This document shows, one piece after another, positions 7,629 to 63,943 of a DNA stretch of 64,000 nucleotides. The stretch is from Desulfovibrio aminophilus DSM 12254. Its GTDB lineage: Bacteria > Desulfobacterota > Desulfovibrionia > Desulfovibrionales > Desulfovibrionaceae. The position numbers and the translations under genes were made by a program. A model generated the notes under the pieces. It searched no databases, had not been told where the DNA came from, and worked only from the letters and a program-made list of their open reading frames with translations. Each line of letters begins with the position of its first letter. Position 1 is the stretch's first letter. Location of the stretch: NCBI RefSeq assembly GCF_000422565.1, contig NZ_AUMA01000011.1, forward strand, positions 124,001 to 188,000, written 5' to 3'.

Positions 7629-8084
7629 ATGACCTTCCGCGTCCTTCTCCTCGTCATGTTCCTCCTCGCCGGGGCCGGAAACGCCTGGTGCGCCGAAGCG
7701 GTCCCGGCCTGGCTGGAGGAGGCCCGGGCCCAGGCCGCGCGCGAGGGGTACACCCTCATCGACCGCGCGGGAGTTCAGGCCTTGCTGGGCGGAACGTCGC
7801 GGCGGGTGATTCTGGATGTGCGGCCCGGCTACGAGTTCGAGGAGGGACACATTCCCGGCGCGGTGAACCTGGAATTCGACCTCGGCGACGAGCGCGGTCT
7901 GGCCCCGGCCAAGCGGGGCGACCTGGTGGGACGGCTCGGCCCGGATCGGAGCGTGACCGTGGTGGTCTATTGCCGCAGCCTTCAGTGCGTGCGCAGCGCC
8001 ATCGCCGCGCGTTGGGCCGCGCGTCTGGGCTATGCCGACGTGCGGCGCTACGTGGGCGGCTGGCGGGACTACTCGACGCCCTAG
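7629..8084 (+). CDS. Exported single-domain rhodanese
   Basis: A 151-aa protein with a signal peptide (FRVLLLVMFLLAGAG) and one rhodanese domain (about 40-148). ILDVRPGYEFEEGHIPGAVN is the CH2A-like signature, and the active loop is CRSLQC (C115, C120), again with two cysteines four residues apart, as in domains 1 and 2 of the upstream lipoprotein. It would act as a soluble periplasmic persulfide carrier. The gene follows the triple-rhodanese gene by 49 nt, which include a GC-rich hairpin (about 7584-7617). Its stop codon overlaps the stop of the convergent TorD-like gene (shared CTAG at 8081-8084). Confidence 0.88.
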   Translation: MTFRVLLLVMFLLAGAGNAWCAEAVPAWLEEARAQAAREGYTLIDRAGVQALLGGTSRRVILDVRPGYEFEEGHIPGAVNLEFDLGDERGLAPAKRGDLVGRLGPDRSVTVVVYCRSLQCVRSAIAARWAARLGYADVRRYVGGWRDYSTP

Positions 8085-8656: not shown

Positions 8657-8689
8657 GCGCGGCCCCCGTCGGTCGAAGCGGAGGAGGAA

Positions 8690-8962
8690 ATGAGCGGCGG
8701 CGTGAACGATTGCGAAAGCCTGCGCCAGGACGTGCTGGCCCGCATGCGGCGCATCGAGGGCCAGGTCCGGGGCGTGGCGGGCATGGTCGAGCAGGGCAAA
8801 CCGTGCGCCGAGATTCTCGTCCAGATGCGCGCCGTGCGCTCGGCCTTGCGCGCGGCCAACGGCGTGATCCTGCGGCGCGCCCTGCTGGACTGCTCCGGCG
8901 CCCTGGAGGACCGGGATCCCGAAAAGCTCATGCTGCTTCTCTCCGATTTCGTGGACTACTGA
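8690..8962 (+). CDS. CsoR-family repressor, CstR-like (persulfide-sensor type residues)
   Basis: A 90-aa DUF156/CsoR-family protein: RRIEGQVRGVAGMVEQGKPC is the family signature. Copper-sensing CsoR uses Cys-His-Cys; here C39 and C68 are kept with the canonical 29-residue spacing, but the His position four residues before C68 is Ala64. FrmR/RcnR N-terminal His ligands are also absent. Two conserved cysteines without His is the pattern of CstR, which senses persulfides and polysulfides. GGAGGAGG at 8680-8687 fixes the start. Divergent from the TorD-like gene and within the molybdoenzyme/rhodanese island, whose ATACCCC palindrome (2316-2332) is a plausible target. Assignment as CstR-like is inferred from residues and context. 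Confidence 0.85.
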   Translation: MSGGVNDCESLRQDVLARMRRIEGQVRGVAGMVEQGKPCAEILVQMRAVRSALRAANGVILRRALLDCSGALEDRDPEKLMLLLSDFVDY

Positions 8963-9124
8963 ACCGCCTTTGGTCCGTTTCACTTCTCTTACCCGCATAC
9001 CCCCTTCGGCTCAAGGCTGATCGACCCCGAAAAAAGCCTTTCCGGCTTGAGGTTTCCCGGCATCCGTCGTACATGGAAACGGATTCGAAACCGCGCGACG
9101 CGGGGGGCGTCGAAGGGAGGAACG

Positions 9125-10375
9125 ATGGCGGTGACGGCGCGTCTGGCCCTCTGTCTGGCCGTGGTCCTGCTGCTCGGGGCCTGCGGCCCCGCGCGCGAGG
9201 CCGCCCCGCGTCAGAACCGGACCCCCGGGGTCACGGACACCGAGATCGTGCTCGGCTCCTCCCTGGCCCTCAAGGGTCACGCCGGATTCCTCGGCACCCA
9301 GACCCTGCGCGGGGCCCTGGCCTACCTGAACGAGGTGAACGAGCAGGGAGGGGTTTTCGGCCGCGGGATTCGGGTCATCGCCTACGACGACTCCTACGAC
9401 CCGCCCCGCTGCTTGGCCAACACCCAGAAGCTCATCATCGACGACGACGTCTTCGCCCTGTTCTGCTATGTGGGAACCCCGACCACGGTGAAGATCATCC
9501 CCTTGGTGACCGAGGCGCGCATCCCCCTGGTGGGCATGTTCACCGGCGCCAACGCCCTGCGCGAGCCCTTCAACCGCTATCTGATCAACGTGCGCGCCTC
9601 CTACTACCAGGAAACCAAGAACGCCGTGAGCCATCTGGTCAAGGGACTGGGCCTGAAGCGCATCGCGGTCTTCTACCAGTACGACGCCTTCGGCTTCGAC
9701 GGGCTCACCGGCACGGAGCTGGCCCTCAAGGAGTTCGGCCTGGAGCCCGTGGCGCGCGGCTCCTACGTGCGGGGCTCCCTGGACGTGGAGGAGGGGCTTT
9801 CCCGGATCATCAACTCCGGGGCCGAGGCCGTGGTCATGATCGGCACCTACGAGCCCTGCGCCAAGTTCATCCATCTGGCGGCCGCGCGCGGCTTCAAGAC
9901 CATCTTCTACAGCGTCTCCTTCGTGGGGGCCGAGGAGCTGGCCAGCCGTCTGGCGGGCCTCGATGACGAGATCGTGATCATGTCCCAGGTGGTGCCTCCG
10001 CCCGAGGGCGTGGCGGGCACCCGGCCCGAGGACATGTCCGAGTACGTGCGCCTGCTGCGCAAGCATTTCCCCGGCGACCGGCCGAATTTCGTCGGGCTGG
10101 AGGGCTACGCCAACGCCCGCGTCCTGGTGGAGGGACTCAAGCGCGCCGGGCCCAGGCTCACCCGCGAGGGCTTTCTGGACGCCGTCGAGTCCATCCGCGA
10201 CTACAGCCTGGGACCGGGCATGTCGGTGTCCTTCGGGCCCGGCGGGCATCAGGGCATGGAGCGGGTCTATTTCACCCGGCTGGAGAAGGGCTCCTTCGTG
10301 CTGCTCCACGACTGGAGCGCCCTGGGCAAGGCCTTTCAGGCCGCCCGCTCCGGGGCTGCGGAGAGCGCGCCATGA
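9125..10375 (+). CDS. Periplasmic substrate-binding lipoprotein (Leu/Ile/Val-binding type)
   Basis: A 416-aa type I periplasmic binding protein (Peripla_BP_6) with a lipobox LLLGACG (Cys about residue 20). Typical segments are TDTEIVLGSSLALKGHAGFL near the N terminus and a C-terminal ligand-binding lobe. These proteins bind amino acids or small amides for ABC import, but no permease or ATPase gene is nearby. Instead the gene overlaps a histidine kinase gene by 4 nt (ATGA), so it is likely a sensory co-receptor. Start at 9125 after AGGGAGGA; the open frame to 9047 has no such site. The upstream gap from 8963 contains a weak hairpin (9034-9048) but no gene. Confidence 0.88.
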   Translation: MAVTARLALCLAVVLLLGACGPAREAAPRQNRTPGVTDTEIVLGSSLALKGHAGFLGTQTLRGALAYLNEVNEQGGVFGRGIRVIAYDDSYDPPRCLANTQKLIIDDDVFALFCYVGTPTTVKIIPLVTEARIPLVGMFTGANALREPFNRYLINVRASYYQETKNAVSHLVKGLGLKRIAVFYQYDAFGFDGLTGTELALKEFGLEPVARGSYVRGSLDVEEGLSRIINSGAEAVVMIGTYEPCAKFIHLAAARGFKTIFYSVSFVGAEELASRLAGLDDEIVIMSQVVPPPEGVAGTRPEDMSEYVRLLRKHFPGDRPNFVGLEGYANARVLVEGLKRAGPRLTREGFLDAVESIRDYSLGPGMSVSFGPGGHQGMERVYFTRLEKGSFVLLHDWSALGKAFQAARSGAAESAP

Positions 10376-12366
10376 AGACCCGCTTCGCGCGCATGAGCCT
10401 GAAGAACAAGATCCGCTTCTCGATCCTGGCCGGGATCGTGGCGGTGAGCGTGGCCGTGGCCCTGCTCACGCGCTGGATTCTCGTCTCCTCGCTCACCGGC
10501 GAACTGATCCTGCGCGGCAGCGCCATCGCCCATTCCGTGGCCGAGCGCGGCGGGGCCTTCGTCCTGGACAAGGACACCCCCAAGCTTCTGAGCCTGATCT
10601 TCGACGAGGCCAAGCTCATGGAGCGCGACCGGCTGGTGGCCTACATTTTCGTCGTCGGCCAGCATGGTGACGTTCTGGCCCACACCTTCACCCGATCCTT
10701 TCCCGGGGAGCTTGAAAAGGTACGCGGGCTGACCCCGGAGGACGGCCGGATGGTGAGCGACGTCTTCCTGGACGACCGCGAGGTTTCGGACATCGCGGTG
10801 CCCATCAAGGAGGGCCTTTATCGCATCGGCACTGTGCACGTGGGCCTGTCCCAGGACCACATCGACCGGCTGGTGGCCAAGCTGCGGATCACTTTCCTGG
10901 GGTTCATCTCGCTGATCATCCTTCTCCTCTTCTTCATTTCTTCCCGCCTGTCGCGCAACATCACCAAGCCCCTGACCCGACTCACGCGCATCTCCGACGA
11001 ATTGTCCCGGGGCAACTTCGACATCACCCTGGATCTGGCGGGCCAGGAGGAGGGCTGGAATCCTTCGTCCTGCCCGGCCTATGCGAACACGGACCTGCCC
11101 TGCTGGAACCTGGACGAGACCGGAACCGCCGAGCGGCCCCAGGATCCGGAGAGCTTACACACCTGCCGCCAGTGCTCCTTCTACCGCAAGCGCGAGGGCG
11201 ACGAGGTGGTCCAACTGGCCGACTCCTTCCGCAACATGGTCTGGAGCATCAAGCTCTACCGGCGGCGGCTCTCGGAGTCCGAGGACAAATACCGCTCCCT
11301 GTTCGACGCGGGACCGGACCCGGTCTTCGTGGTGGATCTGGCCGAAGGGACGATCATCGACGCCAACCCCCGGGCCCTGGACCTGTACGGCTATCCCAAG
11401 CAGGAACTGATCGGGAAGTCCTTCCTGGATCTGGGCCCGGAGAGCAACCGCGAGTTCCTGGCCCAGTTCCGCGCCTCCGGGGCGCCCTCCGGCGGCTGCG
11501 TCTACCGGCCCAAGATGATCCACTACCGCAAGGGCTCCCAGCCCTTCTACGTCAACGTCCACGCCTGTCCCACGGCCTACCGGGGGCGCAACGCGGTGAT
11601 CCTGGCCGTCACCGACGTGACCGAGATGATGGAGAAGGACGCCCAGCTCATCCAGGCCAGCAAGATGAAGTCCCTGGGCGAGATGAGCGCGGGCATCGCC
11701 CATGAGCTGAACCAGCCCTTGAACGCCATCAAGATGGGCAGTGAATTCTTCCTGCTCATGGCCGAACGCGACCTGGAAGTCTCCCGGGAACAGTTCGCGG
11801 AGGTGGCCCGGGAGATCAGCCTCCAGGTGGACCGCGCCGCCGAAATCATCCAGACCCTGCGCTCGTTCGGCCGCAAGGCCGAGCTGGTGCGCGAACGCTT
11901 GGACCCCAACGTCCCGGTTCGGGCGGTGCTGGGACTGGTGGGCCGTCAGTTCGAGCTGGACAGCGTGCGCTTCGAACTGGACCTGGACGACGACCTGCCG
12001 CCGATCATGGCCCAGAGCAACCGGCTTCAGCAGGTCTTTTTCAACCTCGTGACCAACGCCCGGGACGCCATGAACGAGCGCGCCGCGGCTGAGGGGCCGT
12101 CCTTCCGCAAGGTTCTCCGGCTCTCCTCGCGCCTGGAGGGAAACCGCGTGGTCATCGAGGTGGAGGACAACGGCCCGGGCATCCCCGAGGACTTCCGGGA
12201 AAAGATCTTCGAGCCCTTCTTCACCACCAAGGAAGCTGGGCAGGGCATGGGACTGGGTTTGGCCATCAGCTACGGCATCGTGCGCGACTATGGGGGGGAC
12301 ATCCGCATTCAGGTCCGCCCGGGAGAGGGAACGGTCTTCAGCGTCAGCTTCCCGGCGCGGCCCTGA
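10372..12366 (+). CDS. Membrane histidine kinase with HAMP, Cys/CW insert and PAS domain
   Basis: A 664-aa sensor kinase. Order: membrane helix about 18-38, periplasmic sensor about 39-165, second helix about 175-193, HAMP, then a cysteine-rich insert with C234, C244-W245, C265 and C268, PAS domain about 305-420, HisKA with phospho-acceptor H444 in [11 protein letters not shown], and HATPase (N box [11 protein letters not shown] boxes DNGPGIP and [11 protein letters not shown]). The insert resembles the two-CW Cys motif found in Desulfovibrio sensor proteins and could bind a metal, haem or FeS centre or act as a thiol switch. The gene is coupled to the binding protein upstream and followed at 18 nt by its likely partner regulator. 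Confidence 0.92.
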
Positions 12367-51483: not shown

Positions 51484-52020
51484 TTATGGTGTAGGGGCAA
51501 GCAGTGGATGATTCCTGTCCCTGTCGGAAACCTCGCCCACAGACAAAGGCCACTGGATGCCCATGGCCGGGTCGTCGTACCGGAGGCCGCCCTCGGCCCC
51601 CGGCGTGTAGAAATCGGTATGCAGATAGAGCAGTTCCGTGTTCTTCGCAAGGGTCTGGAAGCCGTGGGCGAAACCCTCGGGAAGGAGCAGGGCCCGGCCG
51701 TTGTCTGGGGTTAAGACCTCGGCGTGCCAGCGCAGGTAGGTCGGCGAATCCGGCCTGAGATCCACGGCCACGTCGAAGGCCGCCCCCACCAGGCAGCGGA
51801 CGATTTTTATCTCGGCGTACGGCGGATGCTGGAAGTGCAGGCCCCGGACGGCGCCCCGGGCGTGGGTCAGGGAATGGTTGATCTGGACCACCGGCTTGAG
51901 GCAACCCGCAGCGTGCAGTTCCCGAGCGCAAAACAACCGGGTGAAACTGCCCCGCCCGTCCCGAAAAGGCTCGGATTCCAGGAGGTAGAGTCCACCGAGC
52001 GGTAGGGCCTGGAGCTTCAC
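51484..52020 (-). CDS. dTDP-4-dehydrorhamnose 3,5-epimerase-like (RmlC/RfbC type)
   Basis: A 178-aa cupin epimerase. Family landmarks are INHSLTHARGAVRGLHFQ with the catalytic His, VDLRPDSPTYLRWHAEVL, and LLPEGFAHGFQTLA. It starts with GTG overlapping the dehydratase TGA (GTGA), so it is coupled to CDP-glucose 4,6-dehydratase. That makes a CDP-4-keto-6-deoxyglucose substrate more likely than the dTDP form. Confidence 0.92.
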   Translation of the reverse strand: MKLQALPLGGLYLLESEPFRDGRGSFTRLFCARELHAAGCLKPVVQINHSLTHARGAVRGLHFQHPPYAEIKIVRCLVGAAFDVAVDLRPDSPTYLRWHAEVLTPDNGRALLLPEGFAHGFQTLAKNTELLYLHTDFYTPGAEGGLRYDDPAMGIQWPLSVGEVSDRDRNHPLLAPTP

Positions 52021-53072
52021 GGCAAATTCTCGTAGCGTTCGATCTGCCCCAGCGTGAGCCGTCTGGGGTCCTGGCCCGAGCTTGCCGCCTTGTACCAGGC
52101 CAGGGTCCAGGCCAAGCCCTCGCGGAAAGCCAGCCGGGGAGCCCAGCCCAGTTCGCGCGCGGCCCTGGCGGGATCGAGCCGCAGGCAGCCCGCCTCGTGG
52201 GGAGCGGCCCAGGCGTCGGTCTCGCAGGCCACGTCCGGGCCCCAGCCCGCGCAGAACTGGCGAGCGACCTCGTCCACGCTGTGGACCTCGTCCTTCGCGG
52301 GGCCGAAGTTCCAACCGCCCTGCAATGCCCGGCCCTTCTCGCACAGGCCTTTGACCAGAAGCAGATAGCCGGTCAGGAGGTCGAGCACGTGCTGCCAGGG
52401 CCGCACGGCCCGGGGATTGCGGATGCGGGCCCGGGTTCCAGAGGTGGCGGCCCGCACTAAGTCCGGTATGAGCCGGTCCCTGGCGAAGTCGCCGCCGCCG
52501 ATGACATTGCCAGCGCGCACCGAAGCCACCGAGGTCCGCCCTGCGAAAAAGAAACTCCTGGTGTACGACTCGGTGGCCAGTTCGGCGCAGCCCTTGCTGG
52601 CCGAATAGGGGTCGTGGCCGCCCATTGGGTCGCTCTCCACAAAAGGCCTGCCGAGCTCGTCATTGGCGTAGCACTTGTCGCTGGTCACGATGAGCACGGC
52701 CTCGGCCCCGGGGCTTCGCCGGACGGATTCGAGCAGATGGACCGTGCCCATGATGTTGGTCTCGAAAGTCCCTGCTGGGTCCTCGTACGAAGGCCGGACA
52801 AGGGATTGGGCGGCCATGTGGATGACGATGTCCGGCGCGAACGCGGACACGGCTGCGGTCAGGGCGTGCAGGTCACGGACGTCGCCGCCCAGGCGCCGGA
52901 CATCCTGCTCCACCCCGGCCAAGACATACAGCGACGGCTCGGTCGGCGACTCTAGGGCATACCCGCCCACGACAGCACCGAGCCGGGCCAGCCACAGGGC
53001 CAGCCAAGCCCCCTTGAATCCTGTGTCCCCGGTGAGCAGGATGCGCTTGCCCTCGAAAAAGCCGTCGAACAT
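52017..53072 (-). CDS. rfbG: CDP-glucose 4,6-dehydratase
   Basis: A 351-aa extended SDR that converts CDP-glucose to CDP-4-keto-6-deoxyglucose. NAD motif ILLTGDTGFKGAWLALWLA with the GxxGxKG form typical of RfbG, MAAQSLVRPSYEDP, TSDKCYAN and catalytic YSASKGCAEL. C-terminal WNFGPAKDEVHSV is also characteristic. It sits 7 nt after the cytidylyltransferase gene and overlaps the epimerase. Confidence 0.94.
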   Translation of the reverse strand: MFDGFFEGKRILLTGDTGFKGAWLALWLARLGAVVGGYALESPTEPSLYVLAGVEQDVRRLGGDVRDLHALTAAVSAFAPDIVIHMAAQSLVRPSYEDPAGTFETNIMGTVHLLESVRRSPGAEAVLIVTSDKCYANDELGRPFVESDPMGGHDPYSASKGCAELATESYTRSFFFAGRTSVASVRAGNVIGGGDFARDRLIPDLVRAATSGTRARIRNPRAVRPWQHVLDLLTGYLLLVKGLCEKGRALQGGWNFGPAKDEVHSVDEVARQFCAGWGPDVACETDAWAAPHEAGCLRLDPARAARELGWAPRLAFREGLAWTLAWYKAASSGQDPRRLTLGQIERYENLP

Positions 53073-53079
53073 GGAGTGC

Positions 53080-53859
53080 CTACCAAATTTTCCAAGGGGC
53101 CTTGCCCGCAGTCCAGAGTTTGTTGAGGTGCTCGGTATCGCGCAGAGTGTCCATGCACTCCCAATAGCCCTCGTGGCGATAGGCCGTCAATTGACGCTCC
53201 TGCGCCAATCGCTCCAGGGGGCCGAATTCCAGGTCGCAGCTGGCCTCCGGAGTGAGGTAGTCAAAGACCTTGCGGCTGAAGACGAAGAAGCCTCCGCTGA
53301 TGAGGTCGCGGCCCGCGAAAGTGGGTTTTTCCAGGAACGAGAGCACAGTGTCGCCGTCCAGCTTGAGTTCCCCGAAGCGCTGGGCTGGATTGACGCCGGT
53401 GACCGTGGCGATCTTGCCGTGGGAGTGATGGAAATCGAGGAGCGCCCGGATGTCGATGTTGGCCAATCCGTCGCCGTAAGTCAGCATGAACGTGTCTCCT
53501 GTGATGTACTTTTCCATCCGTTTGATACGGCCACCCTTGAGCGTCTGCTGCCCGGTGTCAGCCATGGTGATGCGCCAGTCGGCCTCGTCATGGCAGCCAT
53601 GTATGCAGAGGCGCTCGGGGTGCCCGAGCTCCACGGTGACGTCGTTGTTCATCCACTGGTAGTTGACGAAATAGTCCCGGATGATCTCGCCCTTGTAGCC
53701 CAGGGGCAGGACGAAATCGGTATACCCGTAGTGGGCGTAAATTTTCATGATGTGCCAGAGGATGGGCCGGGTGCCGATGTTGACCATGGGCTTAGGCCGG
53801 AATTCGGTCTCTTCTCGGAGCCGCGTTCCCAGCCCGCCGCAGAGGATGATTGTTTCCAT
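53080..53859 (-). CDS. rfbF: Glucose-1-phosphate cytidylyltransferase
   Basis: A 259-aa nucleotidyltransferase making CDP-glucose from CTP and glucose-1-phosphate. The nucleotide-binding start is METIILCGGLGTRLREETE, with the activating Lys in RPKPMVNIG, LPLGYKGEIIRDYF and LTYGDGLANID. Length matches RfbF. It is the first step of the CDP-deoxysugar branch and is followed at 7 nt by rfbG. It starts 49 nt downstream of the ABC transporter stop. Confidence 0.95.
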   Translation of the reverse strand: METIILCGGLGTRLREETEFRPKPMVNIGTRPILWHIMKIYAHYGYTDFVLPLGYKGEIIRDYFVNYQWMNNDVTVELGHPERLCIHGCHDEADWRITMADTGQQTLKGGRIKRMEKYITGDTFMLTYGDGLANIDIRALLDFHHSHGKIATVTGVNPAQRFGELKLDGDTVLSFLEKPTFAGRDLISGGFFVFSRKVFDYLTPEASCDLEFGPLERLAQERQLTAYRHEGYWECMDTLRDTEHLNKLWTAGKAPWKIW

Positions 53860-53908
53860 AGCTTCTCACCTGCCTCATATCAAGGGTGCGAGGATTTCCG
53901 GGTCGCGT

Positions 53909-55708
53909 TCACTGAACGGCTTCCACTGGGGAGTCCTGGGCCGCGCCCTCGGCGAACTGCATCTGGTAAAGTCGCGCATAGAGGCCGCAGGATTCCAACA
54001 GTTCCCCGTGGCGGCCCTGGGCCAGAATACGCCCGTTCTCCATGACCACAATGCTATCCGCCGTGAGCACCGTAGACAGACGGTGCGCGATGACGATGCT
54101 CGTGCGGTTGCGCATGAGGTTTTCCAGGGCCAGCTGCACGATGCGCTCGCTCTCGGTGTCCAGGGCGCTGGTGGCCTCGTCCAGGATGAGCAGGGGCGGG
54201 TTCTTTAGGATGGCCCGGGCGATGGTTAGGCGCTGCTTCTGGCCGCCGGAGAGCTTGACCCCCCGCTCGCCCACCAGAGTCGCGTAGCCCTCGGGCAGCT
54301 CGCTGACGAACTCGTGGGCATAGGCGGCCTTGGCCGCCTCCTCGATCTCTTCGCAGCTGTACTGGCGGCTCTCGCCGTAGGCGATGTTGCCGCTCACCGT
54401 GTCGTTGAACAGGAAGGCATCCTGGGAAACGATACCCAGGGAGCGGCGCAAGCTTTTCAGGGTATAGTTCTGAAGTGGGCGGCCATTGATCAGGATGCGG
54501 CCCTCCTGGGGGTCGAAGAAGCGGGGCACGAGGTTTACCAGGGTGGTCTTGCCCGATCCACTGGGGCCCACGATGGCCACGCGCTCCCCGGCCCGTACCG
54601 CCAAGCTGACCCCGTCCAAGGCCGGCCGCGAGGCTCCGGGATAGGTGAAGCGCAGATCCTCGAAGCGCAGTTCCCGGAAGGGCTCGGCCACTTCCAACTC
54701 GCCGCCGGACTCGGCCACCAAGTGCGGGGCGTCCAAGATCTCGAAAACCCGCTCGGCTCCGGCCATGGCGGCCTGGATGTCCATGTTGGCGCTATTCATA
54801 CGCTTGATGGGCTCATAGAGCATGGCCAGAGCGGTGAGAAAGGAGAGCAGCGCCCCGGGGGTCAGATCCTCGCCGATGACCCGCATCCCGCCGTACCAAA
54901 GCACCAGCGCGGCGGCCACAGATCCAACGATCTCCATAACCCGGGAGGATTGTTCGCTGACGCGGATCTGCTTGATCGCACTCGTAAGGAACTTGGAGTT
55001 CTCCCTCTTGAACTTGTCCACCTCCAGGGACTCGGAGGCGAAGGCCTTGATGACCCGGATGCCGGAGAAGCCCTCCTGCATGACCACGCTCACGTCCGCG
55101 ACATTAACCTGGGTTTTGCGGCTGATCTTGCGCAGCTTGCGGCTGAAGGATCTGAAGACCCAGACCACCAGGGGCATGACGATGAGCCCCCAGAAGGCCA
55201 GCGCCCGGTCCAGATAGATGACGTAGGCGACGAGTCCTAGGACGGTGAAGAATTCGCGGGTGCACATGACGATGGACGGCAGGCTCTGACGGATTAGGGC
55301 CACATCGTTGAGCATCCGGGACATAAGCATGCCCACCTGGGTCTCGTTGAAGAACCGCAGGGGCAGATAGACTATGCGCGCGTAGAGGTCGTTGCGCAGG
55401 GCCTCAACAACCATGAACCCTGTGGAGTTCATGTAGTAGGTCTGCATGAAGCGGAATACGCCCTTGAGGGACATGAGCACGAAGATGGCCAGGGTCACCA
55501 ACTGGAGCGCCGCAATGTCCTTGCGGATGAGCACGTCGTCCACGGCCAGCTTGACGAGCCAAGCGGTGAGGGCCCCGCAGGGCGCCACCGCGAGCATGCC
55601 GATGACGGCCAGGACGAGCCGTTTCTTGAAGACCAGGAAATAGCTCAGGCTGCGTTTGAGCAGGTGTCGGGAATCCTGATAGAAAAATTTTCTTTTGCCG
55701 TCGGACAA
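53909..55708 (-). CDS. MsbA-type ABC exporter (fused permease and ATPase)
   Basis: A 599-aa half-transporter: six helices (about 25-315), then an ATPase with Walker A VGPSGSGKTTLVNLV, Q-loop SQDAFLFND, signature LSGGQKQRL, Walker B LLILDEATSALD and H-loop IAHRLSTV. It resembles lipid A/oligosaccharide-lipid flippases of the MsbA/PglK group, so it may flip a lipid-linked glycan made by this cluster. The start is TTG at 55708, with AAAGGA about 9 nt upstream; no ATG lies near and the upstream frame has no family similarity. 49 nt ahead of rfbF. Confidence 0.9.
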   Translation of the reverse strand: MSDGKRKFFYQDSRHLLKRSLSYFLVFKKRLVLAVIGMLAVAPCGALTAWLVKLAVDDVLIRKDIAALQLVTLAIFVLMSLKGVFRFMQTYYMNSTGFMVVEALRNDLYARIVYLPLRFFNETQVGMLMSRMLNDVALIRQSLPSIVMCTREFFTVLGLVAYVIYLDRALAFWGLIVMPLVVWVFRSFSRKLRKISRKTQVNVADVSVVMQEGFSGIRVIKAFASESLEVDKFKRENSKFLTSAIKQIRVSEQSSRVMEIVGSVAAALVLWYGGMRVIGEDLTPGALLSFLTALAMLYEPIKRMNSANMDIQAAMAGAERVFEILDAPHLVAESGGELEVAEPFRELRFEDLRFTYPGASRPALDGVSLAVRAGERVAIVGPSGSGKTTLVNLVPRFFDPQEGRILINGRPLQNYTLKSLRRSLGIVSQDAFLFNDTVSGNIAYGESRQYSCEEIEEAAKAAYAHEFVSELPEGYATLVGERGVKLSGGQKQRLTIARAILKNPPLLILDEATSALDTESERIVQLALENLMRNRTSIVIAHRLSTVLTADSIVVMENGRILAQGRHGELLESCGLYARLYQMQFAEGAAQDSPVEAVQ

Positions 55709-56415: not shown

Positions 56416-56716
56416 GAGCTGCAGACCTCGGGTATTCGCGTTCAAATAACAATCTCTGTTGATTGCGATGAAAAATCGCCTGCGGCGGAGGCCAATCCCC
56501 ACCGGCTGGCGAGACCTATAGCCCAAACCGGGAAGCCAAGGCAAGATGTCCCGTCGGCGCTCCCTTCCGCCAGTGCCGGAGCCGAGCTGGCCTCCGGCAT
56601 TTTGACAGGTCTGCCCAAAGCGGATAGTTACCGGGCGGGACGCGTTTCCGCCCTCTTCCGAGGCAGACCGGCATTCCGTCCGCATCCCATTGCTTCGAGG
56701 AGGTTGTATTTCCAAA

Positions 56717-58051
56717 ATGCTCTGCGCTATTCCCATCGAAATTGCCACTCGGGAATTGGACGGCATCCTTTATCTTGCCCTGCATTTAGCCGCGCGCGGC
56801 CTGCCGACCCTGTTCGGCGAGCGCATGGTCAACCAGTACGTGCTCTCCTCCAGCAACCCGGTAATCTACTTTGACAGCGACCAGGACGTCTCGGTCAATG
56901 AAGCCGTGTTGGCAGCGGGCGGCCGGGTCATCAACCTCAACCCTGAGGGGTTGAACCAGTGGGATGCGCCGGAATACCTGGACAACTTTCTGCGCATCCT
57001 GCCCTGTGTCTCACGTATCTGCGCCTGGGGTGACAAGCAGGCGGCTATGCTGCGGAGCCGCCTGCCGCCGGACAAGGCCAATCTTGTGGCGGTCACCGGG
57101 TATCCCTCCTTCGACTTGGCCAGCAAAAAATTCCTGCCCTATTTTCGCGACGAATCCTTGGGCCGCCGATACGGCGAAGATTATCTGCTCATCAACACTA
57201 GCTTCACCTGCAATCACAGCATGGGCTTTGACTACTATTTCGAGATGCTCAGCCGGATGAAGGAATGGCGTATCTACAAGGACAAGAAGTTCATGGCCTT
57301 CATGAGGCGCAATGCGGAATACCAGCGGGGGCTGCTGGAGCCCTTTGTGGCCCTGACGCGCCACTTGGCCCTGCGCTTCCCGAAACGGCAGGTGATCATC
57401 CGCCCCCATCCTGCGGAAAACATGGACTTCTACCGCAGCAGGATCGCTGATCTGCCCAACGTGCATGTGCTCCGCACCGGTTCCGTGCGCAAGTGGATCG
57501 CCACGGCCGGAGCGGTGATCCATCATGACTGCACCACCGGCCTGGAGGCGCTACTCATGGGCAAACCGCTCATTCAATACCGTCCGCACTTCGATCCGGA
57601 GTTGGCTGCGGCCATCGTCTCCGAGCTTGGCCACCCCGCGGAGACCCCGGAGGCCGTCGCCGACCTTGTGGTCGCCACGTCTAAGGGCTGTGGTCCGGCC
57701 CCTTCAGCCCACGACCTGACTTCTTATGTCGCCAATCTGCGCCAGAAGGCTTGCGAGGTCATCGCCGACATGGCCGCCGGCTTTGCGGCAGGCGGTCCCG
57801 CCGCCTGGAAACCTCGGCCGCCGGGCGTCTGGGGCTCTGTCAAATGCTGGAGAAAATATCTCAGCAAGTTGCTCCGGGCCAAACAGCCGGGGAGAAACGG
57901 CCGCAAGGTCCGATATGCGTTGAGTAAGTTTCCATACATGACGGAACAAGATATCCGCGACCGGCTGGATAAACTCTGGGCAATTGAGCCAGAACTGCCC
58001 CGAGCGAGGGTGGAGCGTCTGACTGTGAACACGTTCCTGCTGACCCAGTGA
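56717..58051 (+). CDS. Surface carbohydrate biosynthesis protein (glycosyltransferase/CDP-glycerol-transferase-like)
   Basis: A 444-aa cytosolic protein resembling the surface-carbohydrate-biosynthesis family found in O-antigen and capsule clusters. The N-terminal half has MLCAIPIEIATRELDGILYL and GYPSFDLASKKFLPYF. The C-terminal half has the GT-B-like features RQVIIRPHPAENMDFY and AVIHHDCTTGLEALLMGKPL, close to poly-glycerophosphate transferases and Kdo-type enzymes. It may transfer a sugar or phosphosugar. The ATG at 56717 is about 14 nt after GAGGAGG, longer than normal, so translation may be weak or begin at a nearby non-ATG codon. It opens the forward polysaccharide operon. Confidence 0.8.
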   Translation: MLCAIPIEIATRELDGILYLALHLAARGLPTLFGERMVNQYVLSSSNPVIYFDSDQDVSVNEAVLAAGGRVINLNPEGLNQWDAPEYLDNFLRILPCVSRICAWGDKQAAMLRSRLPPDKANLVAVTGYPSFDLASKKFLPYFRDESLGRRYGEDYLLINTSFTCNHSMGFDYYFEMLSRMKEWRIYKDKKFMAFMRRNAEYQRGLLEPFVALTRHLALRFPKRQVIIRPHPAENMDFYRSRIADLPNVHVLRTGSVRKWIATAGAVIHHDCTTGLEALLMGKPLIQYRPHFDPELAAAIVSELGHPAETPEAVADLVVATSKGCGPAPSAHDLTSYVANLRQKACEVIADMAAGFAAGGPAAWKPRPPGVWGSVKCWRKYLSKLLRAKQPGRNGRKVRYALSKFPYMTEQDIRDRLDKLWAIEPELPRARVERLTVNTFLLTQ

Positions 58052-58216: not shown

Positions 58217-59806
58217 ATGACTCCCTCAATCATCAATGGATTCCTTCAGAATGCCAAACAAGCGCCGTCCGCCCCGGCCCTGTTCGTCCAGGATGCATTT
58301 TACTCCTACGCGGACTTGGCCGCAGCCGGCGCCTCAATCCGCGAGGCCCTGGTGGCCCAGGCCGCGACCGAAGAATTGATCGGCGTCTTCGCCTACAGGT
58401 CCCTGCCCATGTTCATCGGTATCCTCGGCACACTCATGGCCGGGAAGTGCTACGTCCCGCTCAACCCGACCTTTCCCGCCAAGCGCCTCAAGAGCGTGGT
58501 CCTGCGCTCCGGCATGCGTTTGGTCCTGACCGAAGAGAAGTATTTGGACCAGATCCTGGAGGTGCTCCAGGCCTGCGAAGGCACATACGTCCTCCTGGTG
58601 GTTGATGCCCTTGCTGCAGGGTCCTTTGCTGCGGGCAACGTCGTGGTCCACAACCAGCAACACACGGAGGCCCGGGCACTGGAGCCCCAGGCCCTACGCC
58701 CGGTGGAGGTGCAAGACAACGGCTTCGCCTACCTGCTGTTTACCTCCGGGAGCACTGGGGATCCCAAGGGCGTGGGCATCACCCACGCCAACGTGAACTT
58801 CTTCGTCAACGCGGTGCAACGGAAATACCGTTTCGCTGCCAGCGACAGGTTCTCACAACTGTTCGACTTCACCTTCGACCTCTCGGCCTTTGACATGTTT
58901 GTGGCCTGGAGCGCCGGAGCAGCCGTGTATTGCCCGCCAAAGGAGGAATGCCTCGCCCCGGTGAAATTCGTGAAGAAGCACGAGTTGACCGTATGGTTCT
59001 CCGTGCCCTCCACGGGTGTGCTGATGGCACGCTTCGATTTCCTCAAACCCGGCAACCTCCCGTCCTTGCGCTTTGCTCTATTCTGCGGGGAGGCCCTACT
59101 CTGCGACACGGCCCGGCAGTTCCTGGCCGCCGCGCCGCAGGCCCTGGTGGAGAACCTCTACGGCCCCACCGAGGCGACCATCGCCTTCACCGCTTATCCA
59201 TGCACCCAAGCATCCCTGGACGAGAAGTGCCGCAACGGCGTCGTGCCCATCGGCAAGCCCTTCGAGGGCCTGGTGGCCGCCGTGGTGGACGAGAACCTGC
59301 GGCCGCTGCCCAGGGGCGAGGTCGGGGAACTCTGCCTCGGCGGGGCCCAGATCGCTCCAGGATACTGGGAGGGCGAGGCCCTGACCCGCGCCAAATTCCT
59401 CTCACTACCCCATGCGGGCGCGCCGGAGATCCCGTGGTACCGCACAGGCGACTTGGCCTACTGCGACGCCGACGGAGACCTGTTCTTCTTAGGCCGCAAG
59501 GACGACCAGATCCAGATCGCCGGGTACCGGGTGGAGCTGGGCGAAATCGAGCACGTCCTGCGCCAAGCCACGGGAATCAGCCACGTGGCGGCCATCGGCT
59601 GGCGGCAAGCCCCCAATCACCCGCTGTGCGTCGTGGCCTTCGTGGCGGGCCGAATCGTCGATTCCGCCGCGATCATCGAACGCTGCGCCGAGAGCCTGCC
59701 CAATTACATGGTGCCGCACAAAATCTGCAGTATTGTGAGCATGCCGCTCAACTCCAACGGCAAGATCGACCGCAACACCTTGGCCCAGATGGTCACGGGG
59801 GCATGA
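58217..59806 (+). CDS. AMP-forming adenylation enzyme (free-standing A domain, DltA-like)
   Basis: A 529-aa ANL-superfamily enzyme. Phosphate loop LLFTSGSTGDPKGVGITHAN, VENLYGPTEATIAFTAYP (A5), YRTGDLAYCDADGDLFFLGR (A7-A8) with DDQIQIAGYRVELGEIEHVL, and catalytic Lys in NSNGKIDRN (A10). It activates an acid as acyl-AMP and loads it on a carrier. No thiolation domain is fused; the next gene begins with one, in 4-nt overlap (ATGA), so that is its likely partner. Substrate residues were not decoded; an amino acid is likely given the resemblance to DltA and NRPS A domains. The ATG at 58217 has only a weak ribosome site; the frame opens at 58118. Confidence 0.92.
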   Translation: MTPSIINGFLQNAKQAPSAPALFVQDAFYSYADLAAAGASIREALVAQAATEELIGVFAYRSLPMFIGILGTLMAGKCYVPLNPTFPAKRLKSVVLRSGMRLVLTEEKYLDQILEVLQACEGTYVLLVVDALAAGSFAAGNVVVHNQQHTEARALEPQALRPVEVQDNGFAYLLFTSGSTGDPKGVGITHANVNFFVNAVQRKYRFAASDRFSQLFDFTFDLSAFDMFVAWSAGAAVYCPPKEECLAPVKFVKKHELTVWFSVPSTGVLMARFDFLKPGNLPSLRFALFCGEALLCDTARQFLAAAPQALVENLYGPTEATIAFTAYPCTQASLDEKCRNGVVPIGKPFEGLVAAVVDENLRPLPRGEVGELCLGGAQIAPGYWEGEALTRAKFLSLPHAGAPEIPWYRTGDLAYCDADGDLFFLGRKDDQIQIAGYRVELGEIEHVLRQATGISHVAAIGWRQAPNHPLCVVAFVAGRIVDSAAIIERCAESLPNYMVPHKICSIVSMPLNSNGKIDRNTLAQMVTGA

Positions 59807-60822
59807 TGAGCAGCACGGTCCTGTGGAGCGACTTCCTCCAGCACGTCTTCGTTCTGTACGAACAAAAGTTTTTGCAGCGCGGGATCGCCGTTCCGGACAG
59901 CCTCGCGCCCGAATTCGACCTGATCCGGAACACCATCGTCGATTCCCTGGAATACTTCTCCCTGGTGGGCAGTCTGGAGGAACGCTTCGGCGCCCTGGAC
60001 ATGGAGTTGGTGAGTGAGCACGGTTTTGGCGCCCTAGGCTCCCTATACCAGGGCCTCACCGGCGCGGCCCCGGGCAAGCAGGCCGGGATCACCCGGGCGG
60101 ACATGGCCGAGGCCCTGGCCGGTCTGAGCCTGGAACCCGACGGTGTGTTTGTCATCCATTCGGGCCTCCAGCACCTCGGCCCCATCCAGGGCCATGCCGA
60201 GGCGCTCCACGCGGCGCTCCAGGACGTGGCTGGACGCGGCATAACGGTCATGGTGCCTGCGGCCAACATTCCGCAGTTCAAGGCCCACGCCTTTGACGCC
60301 CGCACCACGCCCGCCGACGCCTCGCTCGGGGTCTTTTCCGAGTACATCCGGTCCCGGCCCGGAGCCCTGCGCAGCGAGAACCCCCTGGATTCCGCAGCGG
60401 CCATCGGGCCCCAGGCCATCGCCCTGATCCGCCCCTACGAACTGGCCTACGGCGAGGGCTCGCCCTGGCGGCAGGCCCTGGACCTGAACGCCACGGCCCT
60501 GTTCGTGGGCGTGGGGCTGGAATACGCCTCGGCCGTGCACATGGCCGAGTTGGACTGCCGGGTACCATACCGGGCCATGAAGGACTTCCGCTACCGGACC
60601 ATGGGCGATTCCGGCCCCCAGGAGAGCTGCTACCGGCTCTTCGCCCGACAGCCGGAGACACTCTACGATTTCGCCAGGATCCACGCCGTGGCGGGCTTCG
60701 ACGCCGCCTGCACTTGGCAGAAGCTCGGCTACGGCGTTTTGACGAAGGTCCGAATGCGCGCTATCTATGCTTCTGCCGTTCGTGTGCTGAACGAAAATCC
60801 TCGTTTTTTCCTGGAGGGATAA
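59803..60822 (+). CDS. Carrier-protein domain fused to AAC(3)-type acyltransferase
   Basis: A 339-aa two-domain protein. Residues about 8-75 look like an acyl/peptidyl carrier: FDLIRNTIVDSLEYFSLVGS carries S48 in a D-S-L phosphopantetheine motif, followed by LEERFG. Residues about 85-339 match the aminoglycoside 3-N-acetyltransferase (AAC(3)/YokD) family: GVFVIHSGLQHLGPIQG, VMVPAANI, ENPLDSAAAIGP and VGVGLEYASAVHMAE, in which one His is probably catalytic. AAC(3) enzymes N-acylate amino sugars from acyl-CoA. Here the acyl group would come from the fused carrier loaded by the adenylation enzyme upstream. In O-antigen clusters such a pair could put an amino-acyl group on an amino sugar. The carrier call rests on a short motif. 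Confidence 0.85.
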   Translation: MMSSTVLWSDFLQHVFVLYEQKFLQRGIAVPDSLAPEFDLIRNTIVDSLEYFSLVGSLEERFGALDMELVSEHGFGALGSLYQGLTGAAPGKQAGITRADMAEALAGLSLEPDGVFVIHSGLQHLGPIQGHAEALHAALQDVAGRGITVMVPAANIPQFKAHAFDARTTPADASLGVFSEYIRSRPGALRSENPLDSAAAIGPQAIALIRPYELAYGEGSPWRQALDLNATALFVGVGLEYASAVHMAELDCRVPYRAMKDFRYRTMGDSGPQESCYRLFARQPETLYDFARIHAVAGFDAACTWQKLGYGVLTKVRMRAIYASAVRVLNENPRFFLEG

Positions 60823-61482
60823 ATGGCTTGGGACGAATGCTGGGAAAAGATATTCTCGGAGCGCGAATGGGGCAAGTATCCCTCGGAAAGCGTCATCCGG
60901 TTCATGGCCAAATACTTCTATAAGGCCCCGGACCGGCGCGCGGTCAAGGTTCTGGACCTGGGTTGTGGCACGGGCACGGTCTCCTGGTACTGCGCTCGTG
61001 AGGGCTTCACGGTCTTCGGCATCGACGGCTCGGCCACCGGAGTGCGCCGAGCCCAGGAGCGCTTCGCCCACGAAGGCCTCAACGGCGAGTTCCGGGTGGG
61101 CGACATCACGAAGCTGCCCTACGCCGACAGATCCTTTGACGCGGTCATCGACGGCTTCGCCATGGCCGCCAACGACCGCGAGTCCCACGCCGTGATCCTC
61201 AAGGAGGTGCGTCGCGTGCTCAAGCCCGAGGGCCTGTTCTACTCCATCTTCCCGGACGTGGACACTATGGGCTACGGCTCGGGTATCACCTTGGACCGCT
61301 ACGTGCAGAAAAACCTGACTACGGGCCCGTTCGCCCAGGAAGGCACTATCTACTTCTTCGACGAGGACGAGATCAAACGGCAATTCCAAGGCTTTACGGT
61401 AGAATCCCTGGAGATGCTCCGGCGCACCTTCGACAACCGCCAGAGCCACTGCACTGAATGGGTCTTTGTCGGCAGGCCCTAA
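60823..61482 (+). CDS. Class I SAM-dependent methyltransferase
   Basis: A 219-aa methyltransferase: motif I VKVLDLGCGTGTVSWYCA, acidic motif II FGIDGSATGV, and motif III region LPYADRSFDAVIDGFAMAAN. It belongs to the Methyltransf_11/25 type (small molecules). It begins at the base after the carrier-AAC(3) stop (TAAATG, GGAGG upstream), so one operon. It could methylate the acyl group or amino sugar made by the preceding genes. Substrate unknown. Confidence 0.9.
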   Translation: MAWDECWEKIFSEREWGKYPSESVIRFMAKYFYKAPDRRAVKVLDLGCGTGTVSWYCAREGFTVFGIDGSATGVRRAQERFAHEGLNGEFRVGDITKLPYADRSFDAVIDGFAMAANDRESHAVILKEVRRVLKPEGLFYSIFPDVDTMGYGSGITLDRYVQKNLTTGPFAQEGTIYFFDEDEIKRQFQGFTVESLEMLRRTFDNRQSHCTEWVFVGRP

Positions 61483-61522: not shown

Positions 61523-62863
61523 ATGCCGAACCCGCACGCAACCGTCTACGTAGTCCACTGCATCGACACGGAAGGCCCGTTGCACGAGTCCCTGGAGGCC
61601 ACGTTCGAACGGCTCCGGTACGTCTTCGGCGTCACCCTGGAACCCACCAGGGAGAACCTGAGGCGGCTCCAGGACGGCGAGATCGATCTCGACGGCAACG
61701 AGGCTGCAGTGCGCCAGATGGTCGCCCCGGAACTGCTCCGCTACAACGACACCTGGGACGCCGTGGACCGGATGCTGGAGAACGCGCTGAACCCGTCGTT
61801 CCGCGACAGCTTCACGGATTCTTTCGGCGGCCACTGGATCTACAACTGGTTCTGCGTGGACCATGTGGGATACGAGGGCAATCCGCGGCACCGGGACATG
61901 GGCTACGGCAACGTCTTCGACCACTATTTCCGGTACGTCCGAGCCCAAGGCATGAGGGACGGGTTCCAGTTCCACTACCACCCCATGCCGTTCAGCCGGC
62001 AGGCGCACCACTGCGCCACCCACTACTTCGCCCACGCCGACACCCTGTTCCGCAGCCTGGCTTGGCGGATCATCGAGCGCGGCTGGTTTCCCAGCTGCTA
62101 CCGCCCCGGGTTTCACACCATCCGGCCGGACAGTCACTGGTTCCTGGAGCAATTCCTGCCCTTCGACTTCTCCAACCAGGCCACGGACGAGACCTCTGAG
62201 CAAAAGGATATGGCCAGCGGCCGCTTCGGCGACTGGCGGCGGGCCCCGGACACCTGGGTCCCGTACCGCCCGGACCACGACGACTACCAGCGGCCCGGCA
62301 ACTGCCGTCGCCACACCATGCGCTGCCTGAACGTCGGCACCCGCACGCGCTGCCTGAGGCAGTCCGACGTGGACCAGGCCTTTGTGGAGGCCAGCCGGAG
62401 CTTGCCCGTGATCTTGGCCTTCGCCGACCACGATTTCCGCGACATCCGCCCGGACGTGCGCACGGTGGCGGCCATGCTGGCGGATGCGGCCAGGCGCCAC
62501 CCCGGTGTGGGCTACCGCTTCTGTGAGGCACGTGAGGCCGCCCGCTTCGCCCTAGGCCTGGAGGCCGCAAAGCCCCCCCTCACGCTCAAGGCCACTTGGC
62601 AGGACGACACCCTGCTCCTAGAGGCGGACCGGCCCATTTTCGGACCCCAACCGTTCCTGGCCCTCAAGACCCGCACCGGTCAGTACCTTCACGACAACTT
62701 CGACATCCAGACCCCGTTCCGCGCCTGGAGCTACGTGCTGGACGCCCAGACCGTGCCCGCCGGCACGGTAGAGACCATCGGCGCGGGCGCCTGCGACGCC
62801 GCAGGCAACGTGACGGTGGTCCGCTCCATACCCGGCGGCCCAGCCGAGTCCTTCCACTGGTAG
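61523..62863 (+). CDS. Polysaccharide-deacetylase-like protein
   Basis: A 446-aa protein without signal peptide. The N terminus ATVYVVHCIDTEGPLHES holds the D-x-E pattern seen at the start of NodB-type polysaccharide deacetylases. Histidine clusters FHYHPMPFSRQAHHCATHYF supply further metal-ligand candidates, and RPGFHTIRPDSHWFLE fits the later catalytic region. NodB enzymes remove N-acetyl groups, which here would free the amine acylated by the carrier-AAC(3) protein. The first about 320 residues are conserved-looking; the rest is a beta module. The ATG at 61523 is used; GTG 61508 and a TTG at 61466 are alternatives. Deacetylase function is inferred. Confidence 0.72.
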   Translation: MPNPHATVYVVHCIDTEGPLHESLEATFERLRYVFGVTLEPTRENLRRLQDGEIDLDGNEAAVRQMVAPELLRYNDTWDAVDRMLENALNPSFRDSFTDSFGGHWIYNWFCVDHVGYEGNPRHRDMGYGNVFDHYFRYVRAQGMRDGFQFHYHPMPFSRQAHHCATHYFAHADTLFRSLAWRIIERGWFPSCYRPGFHTIRPDSHWFLEQFLPFDFSNQATDETSEQKDMASGRFGDWRRAPDTWVPYRPDHDDYQRPGNCRRHTMRCLNVGTRTRCLRQSDVDQAFVEASRSLPVILAFADHDFRDIRPDVRTVAAMLADAARRHPGVGYRFCEAREAARFALGLEAAKPPLTLKATWQDDTLLLEADRPIFGPQPFLALKTRTGQYLHDNFDIQTPFRAWSYVLDAQTVPAGTVETIGAGACDAAGNVTVVRSIPGGPAESFHW

Positions 62864-62932: not shown

Positions 62933-63943
62933 ATGAAACTTACGGGCAAGCGAATTCTCGTCACCGGGGCGGACGGATTCATCGGTTCGCACCTGACTGA
63001 GCACTTGGTGCGCCTGGGGTTCCGGGTGCGGGCCTTCGTGCTCTACAATTCCTTCAACTCCTGGGGCTGGCTGGACGAATCGCCTGAGGAGGTCAAGGCC
63101 GAACTGGACGTTTTCGCTGGCGACATCCGCGATCCCAACGGGGTGCGCCAGGCGATGCGAGGTTGCGACGTGGTCCTCAACCTGGCCGCGCTCATCGCCA
63201 TCCCCTATTCCTATCACTCCCCGGACACTTACGTAGACACCAACGTCAAGGGCGCGCTGAACGTGGTCCAGGCGGCCCGCGACCTGGGCGTGGAGCGCGT
63301 GATCCAGACCTCCACCAGCGAGGTCTACGGCACGGCGCGGTTTGTGCCCATCACCGAGGAGCACCCCCTCCAGCCCCAGTCGCCCTATTCGGCCTCCAAG
63401 ATCGGCGCGGACCAGATCGCGCTCTCGTTCCACCACGCCTTCGGCACGCCGGTGTCGGTGATCCGGCCCTTCAACACCTATGGCCCCCGGCAGTCCGCCC
63501 GGGCCGTGATCCCCACCGTGATCACCCAGATCGCCACCGGCGTCCGCCATGTGCGGCTCGGGGCCCAGCACCCCACGCGGGACTTCAGCTTCGTGGAGGA
63601 CATCGTGCGCGGCTTCGTGGCGGTGGCCCGGGCCGACGCCTGCCTGGGGCAGGTCACCAACATCGGCAGCGGATTCGAGATATCCATCGGCGACACGGCC
63701 CGGACCATCGCCGAGGTCATGGGCGCGGACATCGAGATCGTCTGCGACCAGGAGCGTTTGCGGCCGGAGAACAGCGAGGTGGAACGCCTCTTCGCGGGCA
63801 TCGAGCGGGCCGCCGAGCGCTGTGGCTGGCAGCCCGAATACGCCGGAATCGACGGCTTCCGGCGCGGACTCGCGCGCACCGTGGAATGGTTCCGGACCCC
63901 TGACAACCTCCGGCGCTACAAGGCCGGCCGCTACAACATCTGA
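62933..63943 (+). CDS. legB: UDP-GlcNAc 4,6-dehydratase LegB-like (legionaminic acid pathway)
   Basis: A 336-aa extended SDR with GKRILVTGADGFIGSHLTEH, catalytic TSTSEVYG and YSASKIGADQIALSF. It ends NLRRYKAGRYNI, a C terminus typical of LegB-type enzymes. LegB carries out the first committed step (4,6-dehydration) of the legionaminic acid and related nonulosonate routes. The following gene (63964) looks like the nucleotidyltransferase that often accompanies it. The ATG at 62933 has GGAG 8 nt upstream. Closely related dehydratases (GDP-mannose or dTDP-glucose types) are the alternative, but the N-terminal VLYNSFNSWGWLDE favours LegB. Confidence 0.85.
   Translation: MKLTGKRILVTGADGFIGSHLTEHLVRLGFRVRAFVLYNSFNSWGWLDESPEEVKAELDVFAGDIRDPNGVRQAMRGCDVVLNLAALIAIPYSYHSPDTYVDTNVKGALNVVQAARDLGVERVIQTSTSEVYGTARFVPITEEHPLQPQSPYSASKIGADQIALSFHHAFGTPVSVIRPFNTYGPRQSARAVIPTVITQIATGVRHVRLGAQHPTRDFSFVEDIVRGFVAVARADACLGQVTNIGSGFEISIGDTARTIAEVMGADIEIVCDQERLRPENSEVERLFAGIERAAERCGWQPEYAGIDGFRRGLARTVEWFRTPDNLRRYKAGRYNI

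Follow-up and report, generated by a model that had tools for sequence, protein, structure and literature searches.

A stretch of 64,000 nucleotides from Desulfovibrio aminophilus DSM 12254 (contig NZ_AUMA01000011.1, forward-strand positions 124,001 to 188,000; hereafter the window) contains, between positions 58217 and 60822, two overlapping genes transcribed in the same direction (Table 1). The first codes for a free-standing adenylation (A) domain of the nonribosomal peptide synthetase (NRPS) type, and the second for a fusion protein in which a probable carrier domain precedes an AAC(3)-type acyltransferase domain. An earlier reading of the sequence (the original prediction) had placed an A domain and an overlapping carrier-AAC(3) gene at exactly these coordinates, and the A domain and the acyltransferase domain both scored above the cut-offs of their models, TIGR01733 and PF02522. 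The two genes adjoin a legionaminic acid (Leg) pathway, to which, as argued below, they may supply an acyl group.

The A-domain gene runs from an ATG at 58217 to a TGA at 59806. Its product scored 349.5 bits against the amino acid adenylation model TIGR01733 (cut-off 317.4) and matched PF00501 (1e-69) and also PF13193. A plain DltA-like D-alanylation was rejected, the cut-offs for DltA being 560 and 476 bits and the scores of the A domain 257 and 265. The equivalents of Asp235 and Lys517, which hold the alpha-amino acid, are present (D221 and K516; 221 and 516 in the alignment, counted from zero), and the substrate pocket, at what we take to be the PheA-numbered positions, reads DLFFLCLIAK. 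In the same alignment the A domains of genomes G687 and G674 (genomes and loci are cited by our working numbers) show DLFFLCLVYK and those of G027, G548, G509 and G466 show DLHFLCLIAK; the pocket is near-constant in seven of the nine aligned A domains, the window's counted, and divergent in two more distant ones (DLFCTCQCAK and DTLLVYMVLK). With both the Asp and the Lys in place and a pocket that hardly varies, these seven A domains probably share one substrate class; no acid could be assigned from the pocket DLFFLCLIAK.

The N-terminal part of the fusion protein resembles carrier domains at the level of profiles. With the whole fusion protein as the phmmer query, the peptidyl carrier protein (PCP) 2my5 was matched over residues 29-88 (E 0.0022). 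A two-sequence profile built from both fused N-termini (the window's and that of the second fusion described below) had the same PCP as its top match in the PDB (1.4e-4), and hhalign gave 94.6% (E 7e-8) for the fused N-termini against 11 stand-alone carriers. The predicted phosphopantetheine site is S48 (codon 59944-59946, context IVDSLEYF). D47-S48 was invariant in 13 of 13 chosen carriers, the second fusion included; in another set of 11 carriers, which overlaps the first, the Ser never varied and the Asp was present in at least 90%. At a threshold of 1e-3 real open reading frames (ORFs) gave 17 carrier matches with a three-sequence profile and 34 with a 17-sequence profile, and shuffled ORFs gave none. 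The genome has a single match to the phosphopantetheinyl transferase family PF01648, and that one enzyme would need to serve this carrier as well. The carrier fold that the original prediction assigned to this region is supported by the profile matches, and it is probable but not proven that the N-terminus is a divergent carrier. It could instead be a degenerate or structural helical domain beside an unrelated A domain, as the silence of the Pfam PP-binding family and the weak direct similarity to the G027 carrier (27% over 66 residues) would suggest; we regard this as very improbable, given the PCP as top PDB match, the profile-profile score, and the retention of D47-S48 in the second fusion, where the carrier region is only 24% identical.

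The C-terminal domain matched PF02522 (Antibiotic_NAT) over residues 118-329 with 2.9e-32 and 112.5 bits (gathering score 25), and its closest solved structures by sequence were FrbF and AAC(3)-IVa. Enzymes of the AAC(3) fold are, as a family, coenzyme A (CoA)-dependent. The catalytic His is kept as H246 (60538-60540), aligned with a His in chain 6mn3 and an Ala in 6mn4, and E249 is kept as well; across 25 aligned AAC(3) domains, an alignment too diverse to serve in a scan, the His was present in 24 and the following Glu in all 25. Asn193 occupies the position at which FrbF and AAC(3)-IVa have the His of RSxHP. Both fusions have Asn there, and Asn, Asp or Glu stands at this position in eight of the 25 domains. 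An aminoglycoside-resistance gene was ruled out because the five matching NCBIfam AAC(3) models scored far below their cut-offs (89 against 270 bits, 74 against 420, 67 against 480, 48 against 675 and 41 against 560). The protein shares its fold family and catalytic His with the AAC(3) N-acetyltransferases and FrbF, and differs from them in these scores, in its fused carrier and in its sugar-cluster context. A plasmid search matched 3294 records, none covering more than 80% of the query; the 20 matches listed of these 3294 lay on genes annotated as AAC(3), and the neighbourhoods of two of them, which were inspected, carried no carrier or ligase annotation.

A second carrier-AAC(3) fusion was found in G687, which belongs to another genus of the same family. 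It is 36% identical to the window protein over 333 amino acids, the carrier region included, retains S48, H246 and E249, and its gene immediately follows that of an A domain with 45% identity to the window's. Linkage to A domains extends beyond the fusions. In G027 an A domain (41% identical) is followed by a carrier, a cysteine-cluster protein and an AAC(3), and in G548 an A domain and a carrier near-identical to those of G027 precede an AAC(3). In G544 a single protein of 863 amino acids (L064:7882-10473) contains an AMP-ligase (residues 23-504), a carrier-like stretch (539-595, with the motif WDSLAHVSLML) and an AAC(3) domain (608-855), the only protein of this type among 288 family genomes; its carrier-like stretch could be aligned, in single comparisons, with stand-alone carriers from two further AAC(3) loci at 8e-8 and 2e-8. 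The conservation of S48 and the A-domain linkage on which the original prediction relied are borne out by these relatives, and the search that it proposed for other fusions yielded one more. One viral scan found no relative.

PF02522 was present in 18 of 395 genomes of a phylum sample and in 27 of 199 of a family sample. The 43 AAC(3) domains surveyed are the 46 distinct matches minus three that were not fetched; left out of the count were the PF02522 matches of G355 and G287 (of 21, phylum sample) and G573 (of 29, family sample). By a home-made profile, a carrier lay within 2.5 kb of 26 of the 43 domains, in 23 cases on the same strand, and within 600 bp of 13. The 17-sequence carrier profile had been seeded from matches picked by E-value, not by position. 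Within the same loci, the 228 kb around AAC(3) domains held 26 carriers and the remaining 487 kb held 7 (binomial 4e-8, an optimistic value because genomes of one genus recur). Ten loci come from genus g8 (L045, L047-L051, L053, L056, L057 and L060), and the domains of one genus are not independent; four of the 26 positives (L047, L049, L051 and L053) are g8 loci with weak carrier scores, 8e-5 to 8e-4, and 22 of 43 remain if these are dropped. The stretches of L038 and L035 end at contig ends. The original prediction considered that an AAC(3) enzyme fed by a tethered carrier would be a new variant; the pairing of AAC(3) and carrier is not confined to this gene and recurs in the window's family and phylum.

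Other gene arrangements were seen in the surveyed loci. An AAC(3) domain with a C-terminal DUF2172/DUF4910 peptidase-like domain (four proteins tested with Pfam; Table 1) constitutes a second fusion type, and in L034 and L057 a gene for a WDSL-type carrier lies directly beside it. Cj1296/7 of Campylobacter jejuni presumably belongs to the AAC(3) family, and Cj1295 to the DUF4910 family. A cysteine-rich protein (pattern CWx[T/S]C...CC) turns up repeatedly in the vicinity of genes for carriers, AAC(3) or KAS III; the three copies tested (L025, L088 and L091) had no Pfam match, and the protein might modify a carrier-bound acyl group. KAS III and carrier genes occur close to AAC(3) genes in L036, L052 and L088 (KAS III tested with Pfam in L088 only), with an A domain in L088 and none found in the L036 and L052 stretches. 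This neighbourhood suggests acyl chains built by condensation.

The surroundings of the two genes point to the sugar that would receive the acyl group. From 56690 onwards the genes for the TIGR04396 protein, the A domain, the fusion, the methyltransferase, the deacetylase-like protein and LegB are co-directional, and the series goes on past the window. The Leg pathway continues on contig C7 of the same genome (G000) to about position 197780, with genes for LegC, LegI, LegG, a CMP-transferase and a nucleotidyltransferase. LegC (TIGR04181), LegI (NeuB; TIGR03569) and LegG (NeuC; TIGR03568) scored above the cut-offs of curated models. Also in the set are a cytidylyltransferase (PF02348; the PseF model stayed under its cut-off), a CBS-nucleotidyltransferase, a Gfo/Idh oxidoreductase and a short-chain dehydrogenase/reductase (SDR; PtmA model below cut-off), which read as PtmB/E/F/A-like proteins and would complete the legionaminic acid set. 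Two minus-strand genes, heptosyltransferase-like and glycosyltransferase-like, lie between the SDR and LegC genes.

Genome G687 has the same Leg pathway (46-74% identity per gene), followed by its A domain and fusion. The other three tailoring genes also have homologues there (45%, 37% and 51%), that of the TIGR04396 protein directly after the fusion, and the same five tailoring genes adjoin the Leg pathway in G000 and G687. The original prediction had noted a methyltransferase and a deacetylase-like gene downstream. The former was identified with Pfam; the latter showed motif-like residues and no match to any library family, a profile search of the PDB gave five unrelated matches (the best at 0.0089), and the single-sequence model (mean pLDDT 34) was too poor for a fold search. 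The reading of this protein as deacetylase-like comes from its motifs. G674, of the same genus as G687, has the same Leg pathway and the same following neighbours, read as feoAB-like, and a different cassette, made up of a fragment of an A domain, a carrier standing alone, a complete A domain, genes for a deacetylase-like protein, for a TIGR04396-like protein (30% identical) and for a cysteine-cluster protein, as well as AAC(3), KAS III and a carrier. Because G674 keeps the pathway and its neighbours and differs in the cassette, the tailoring genes resemble a unit that can be swapped next to an unchanging sugar pathway.

Table 1. Positions of the genes, domains and recurrent proteins described in the text; L numbers denote surveyed loci outside the window.
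Feature	Coordinates	Strand	Evidence
Free-standing NRPS-type A domain (P0001, 529 aa)	58217..59806	+	TIGR01733, PF00501, PF13193
Carrier-AAC(3) fusion protein (P0002, 339 aa)	59803..60822	+	Start overlaps A-domain stop through ATGA
Probable carrier domain, about residues 8-88	59824..60066	+	Profile matches; Pfam PP-binding silent
AAC(3)-type acyltransferase domain, residues 96-339	60088..60819	+	PF02522
Surface carbohydrate biosynthesis protein, possible sugar transferase	56690..58051	+	TIGR04396
S-adenosylmethionine (SAM)-dependent methyltransferase	60823..61482	+	Pfam; 51% homologue in G687 cluster
Deacetylase-like protein, no named family	61523..62863	+	Motifs HCxDTEGP, HxHP, RPGxH, HD conserved
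LegB, NAD-dependent 4,6-dehydratase, first Leg-pathway gene	62933..63943	+	TIGR04180, 511.8 bits (cut-off 475)
AAC(3)-DUF2172/DUF4910 fusion	L026:9876-11822		Pfam
AAC(3)-DUF2172/DUF4910 fusion	L028:15038-17227		Pfam
AAC(3)-DUF2172/DUF4910 fusion	L034:8389-10173		Pfam
AAC(3)-DUF2172/DUF4910 fusion	L057:8284-10383		Pfam
Cysteine-rich protein	L025:18083-18808		Motif
Cysteine-rich protein	L088:13835-14563		Motif
Cysteine-rich protein	L090:8316-9140		Motif
Cysteine-rich protein	L091:10665-11381		Motif

Some further features of these regions were noted. In L088, positions 7643-10614 hold an A-domain fragment whose start matches the G687 A domain, then a lone carrier and another A domain, this one full, a sign of cassette exchange at the site. 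The G+C content of the window is 0.61-0.64 between 50000 and 62000 and mostly 0.65-0.71 elsewhere (dips occur at 30-32 and 44-48 kb); at 56.7-59.8 kb the third-codon G+C is 0.75-0.82. Horizontal gain of this surface-sugar region is possible. Minus-strand genes at 51500-54000 were read as coding for a glucose-1-phosphate cytidylyltransferase, a CDP-glucose 4,6-dehydratase and a dTDP-4-dehydrorhamnose 3,5-epimerase-like protein; these would make up a second deoxysugar route nearby.

In the known pathway LegH N-acetylates the C4 amine that LegC makes (PMC3438082, Table 1; PMC6137143). The loci were searched for LegH by BLAST, the queries being a PglD-type protein of the window's genome, a hexapeptide protein and the PglD-like protein of L091. 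Among these loci, five combine an AAC(3) with one or more Leg genes that match the window's at 46% identity or better across most of the gene. The window cluster (L002) contained no PglD/hexapeptide homologue by this search, in which GNAT-type acetyltransferases were not included, and neither did L052, L088 and L089 (four of the five loci, L002 included). A PglD-like gene is present in L091, a locus in which Leg genes occur without an AAC(3). The only match in the window's genome above the NeuD/PglD cut-off lies on contig C9, beside genes read as bacillosamine-type. Because the linkage recurs in two genera and no PglD-type LegH was found in the cluster, the acceptor is likely to be an intermediate or product of the adjoining Leg pathway. 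The sugar N-acylation put forward in the original prediction is supported by the genomics, with a likely legionaminic acid acceptor in place of a generic surface amino sugar.

The AAC(3) domain might also simply be an acetyl-CoA-using LegH that happens to be encoded together with an A domain and carrier serving another step, such as the attachment of an ester or amide by another enzyme. The CoA dependence of the fold family fits such a role, as do the intact H246 and E249. LegH is listed as an N-acetyltransferase (PMC3438082, Table 1), and the search of the cluster yielded none of the PglD type. We nevertheless consider a CoA-using LegH distinctly unlikely, since the fusion is covalent in two genera, a ligase/carrier-like/AAC(3) protein exists, both fusions have Asn instead of the RSxHP His, and the ORF lists of the cluster showed no other obvious carrier-using acyltransferase.

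Rather unlikely, too, is a late acceptor. Once the deacetylase-like enzyme has exposed an amine, the module would in this case acylate CMP-legionaminic acid at N5 (or on a hydroxyl) or else act on a different sugar, for instance the CDP-sugar assigned to the minus-strand genes at 52-54 kb. Homologues of that enzyme accompany the module or its relatives in the G687, G674 and G599 clusters. In addition, C. botulinum flagellin reportedly carries Leg5GluNMe7Ac (described by Twine in 2008), with an N-methylated amino acid on N5, which would fit the combination of A domain, acyltransferase, methyltransferase and deacetylase. LegH might then be supplied from elsewhere, possibly by the PglD-like gene on contig C9. 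On the other hand, only motifs point to a deacetylase, and C4 acetylation is left unexplained if no other LegH acts. An AAC(3) domain in LegH's place, giving an N7-acyl product, was favoured over transfer to the N5 amine by about two to one.

Our preferred reading, to which we assign a probability of roughly 0.57, is that the two genes would form a minimal NRPS-like aminoacylation or acylation module that ends in an AAC(3)-fold acyltransferase and not in a condensation domain. The A domain would load an amino acid on the carrier, and the AAC(3) domain would move it to an amine of the Leg pathway, perhaps replacing LegH. The chemical steps, acyl transfer included, are proposed from the genes, domains, conserved residues and linkage observed. 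A phosphopantetheinyl transferase would first arm S48. The A domain would then adenylate an alpha-amino acid and load it on S48, as its family and adjacency suggest. From family and fusion, the tethered AAC(3) domain would move the acyl group to the sugar amine with H246 as base, drawing on the carrier arm where classical AAC(3) enzymes draw on acetyl-CoA. The acceptor would most likely be the C4 amine made by LegC, which would yield an N7-acyl legionaminic acid; alternatively, the product of the downstream gene could first deacetylate N5, and the amine freed there would be the acceptor. Finally, the methyltransferase may add a cap to the acyl group, with the TIGR04396 protein as a possible transferase for the completed sugar.

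Several observations weigh against this module, in addition to the gap for GNAT-type enzymes in the LegH search. At the carrier, PF00550 did not match the fusion N-terminus even at E 10, and the AlphaFold single-sequence model, made with no alignment, was too poor (mean pLDDT 41) for the fold to be judged. The carrier-like stretch of the G544 protein reached an independent E-value of only 0.19 with the home-made profile and had no Pfam match, and the ligase of that protein resembles acyl-CoA ligases, not amino acid A domains. The AAC(3) of G027 is without the catalytic His. True fusion is rare (2 of 297 genomes in the order sample and 1 of 36 in the genus of G687, two genomes in all), and two pattern scans of the named GTDB r220 genomes, insensitive to diverged copies, found none. 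In the survey, 17 of the 43 AAC(3) domains, that of G544 among them, had no carrier within 2.5 kb by profile, and in three of the 26 positives the carrier is on the opposite strand. As regards LegH, the fifth comparison locus, L053, has an AAC(3), a LegC (52%) and a hexapeptide ORF that is truncated where the stretch ends; L039, L045, L047 and L048, with weaker NeuB/LegI matches, have hexapeptide genes as well as AAC(3); and the PglD-like gene on contig C9 could itself serve as LegH.

Comparison with known systems places the module as follows. The C. jejuni pathway (LegB-C-H-G-I-F, with LegH being Cj1298; PMC3438082, Table 1) shares LegB, LegC, LegG, LegI, a cytidylyltransferase, a CBS-nucleotidyltransferase and an SDR with the window cluster, in which, unlike in that pathway as listed, no PglD-type LegH was found and an A domain and a carrier-AAC(3) fusion are present instead. 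In Flavobacterium psychrophilum the acyltransferase WfpG is predicted to move an acyl group from the carrier WfpD to the C4 amine of UDP-Qui2NAc4N (PMC6519341). According to that source WfpG is a PglD homologue that would receive its acyl group by a fatty-acid-like route through a dedicated carrier, a protein separate from WfpG, whereas the window module has an AAC(3) fold, an A domain and a fused carrier. C. jejuni also makes a pseudaminic acid with di-O-methylglyceric acid, with which Cj1295, listed as an aminopeptidase, is associated; Cj1296/7, numbered next to it, is listed as an N-acetyltransferase (PMC3068675). The likeness lies in the bulky acyl group on a nonulosonic acid and in the AAC(3)-DUF4910 fusions of our survey; the available portions of that source give no mechanism. 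Glycan amines that bear amino acids are an established chemical finding. The type B flagellin of C. difficile carries Fuc3N-Gly-Ala-taurine, in which an amino acid is amide-linked to an amino sugar, and ligase and acyltransferase genes have been proposed for it (PMC5207245); the sugar and the genes are different, and no carrier-AAC(3) fusion is described in the portions available. Acyl-carrier and ligase genes have been noted in enterobacterial flagellin glycosylation islands (PMC4875605). In the open-access literature we found no paper joining AAC(3), a carrier protein and O-antigen, none, in a weak search, on Antibiotic_NAT and a carrier protein, and none on legionaminic acid with an N-acyltransferase and a carrier. 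The kind of reaction is not new, carrier-fed sugar N-acylation having been proposed before with another fold (PMC6519341); the carrier-fed AAC(3) fold, the covalent fusion and an amino acid A domain feeding a Leg pathway appear to be new within the literature searched.

For the family at large we put forward, tentatively and at a little less than even odds, that a sizeable branch of the AAC(3) superfamily may be carrier-dependent, acting as the terminal amide-forming enzyme of mini-NRPS or acyl modules that travel as exchangeable tailoring cassettes, and that this branch may write variable N-acyl groups on nonulosonic acids and related amino sugars. PF02522 matches should not be equated with resistance genes without caution. 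If the proposal is true, genes annotated as aminoglycoside acetyltransferases would be given a different job, and a compact A-carrier-transferase tool for placing chosen acyl groups on sugars would be at hand. It would also show a route by which amino acids and odd acyl groups come onto bacterial sialic-acid-like sugars.

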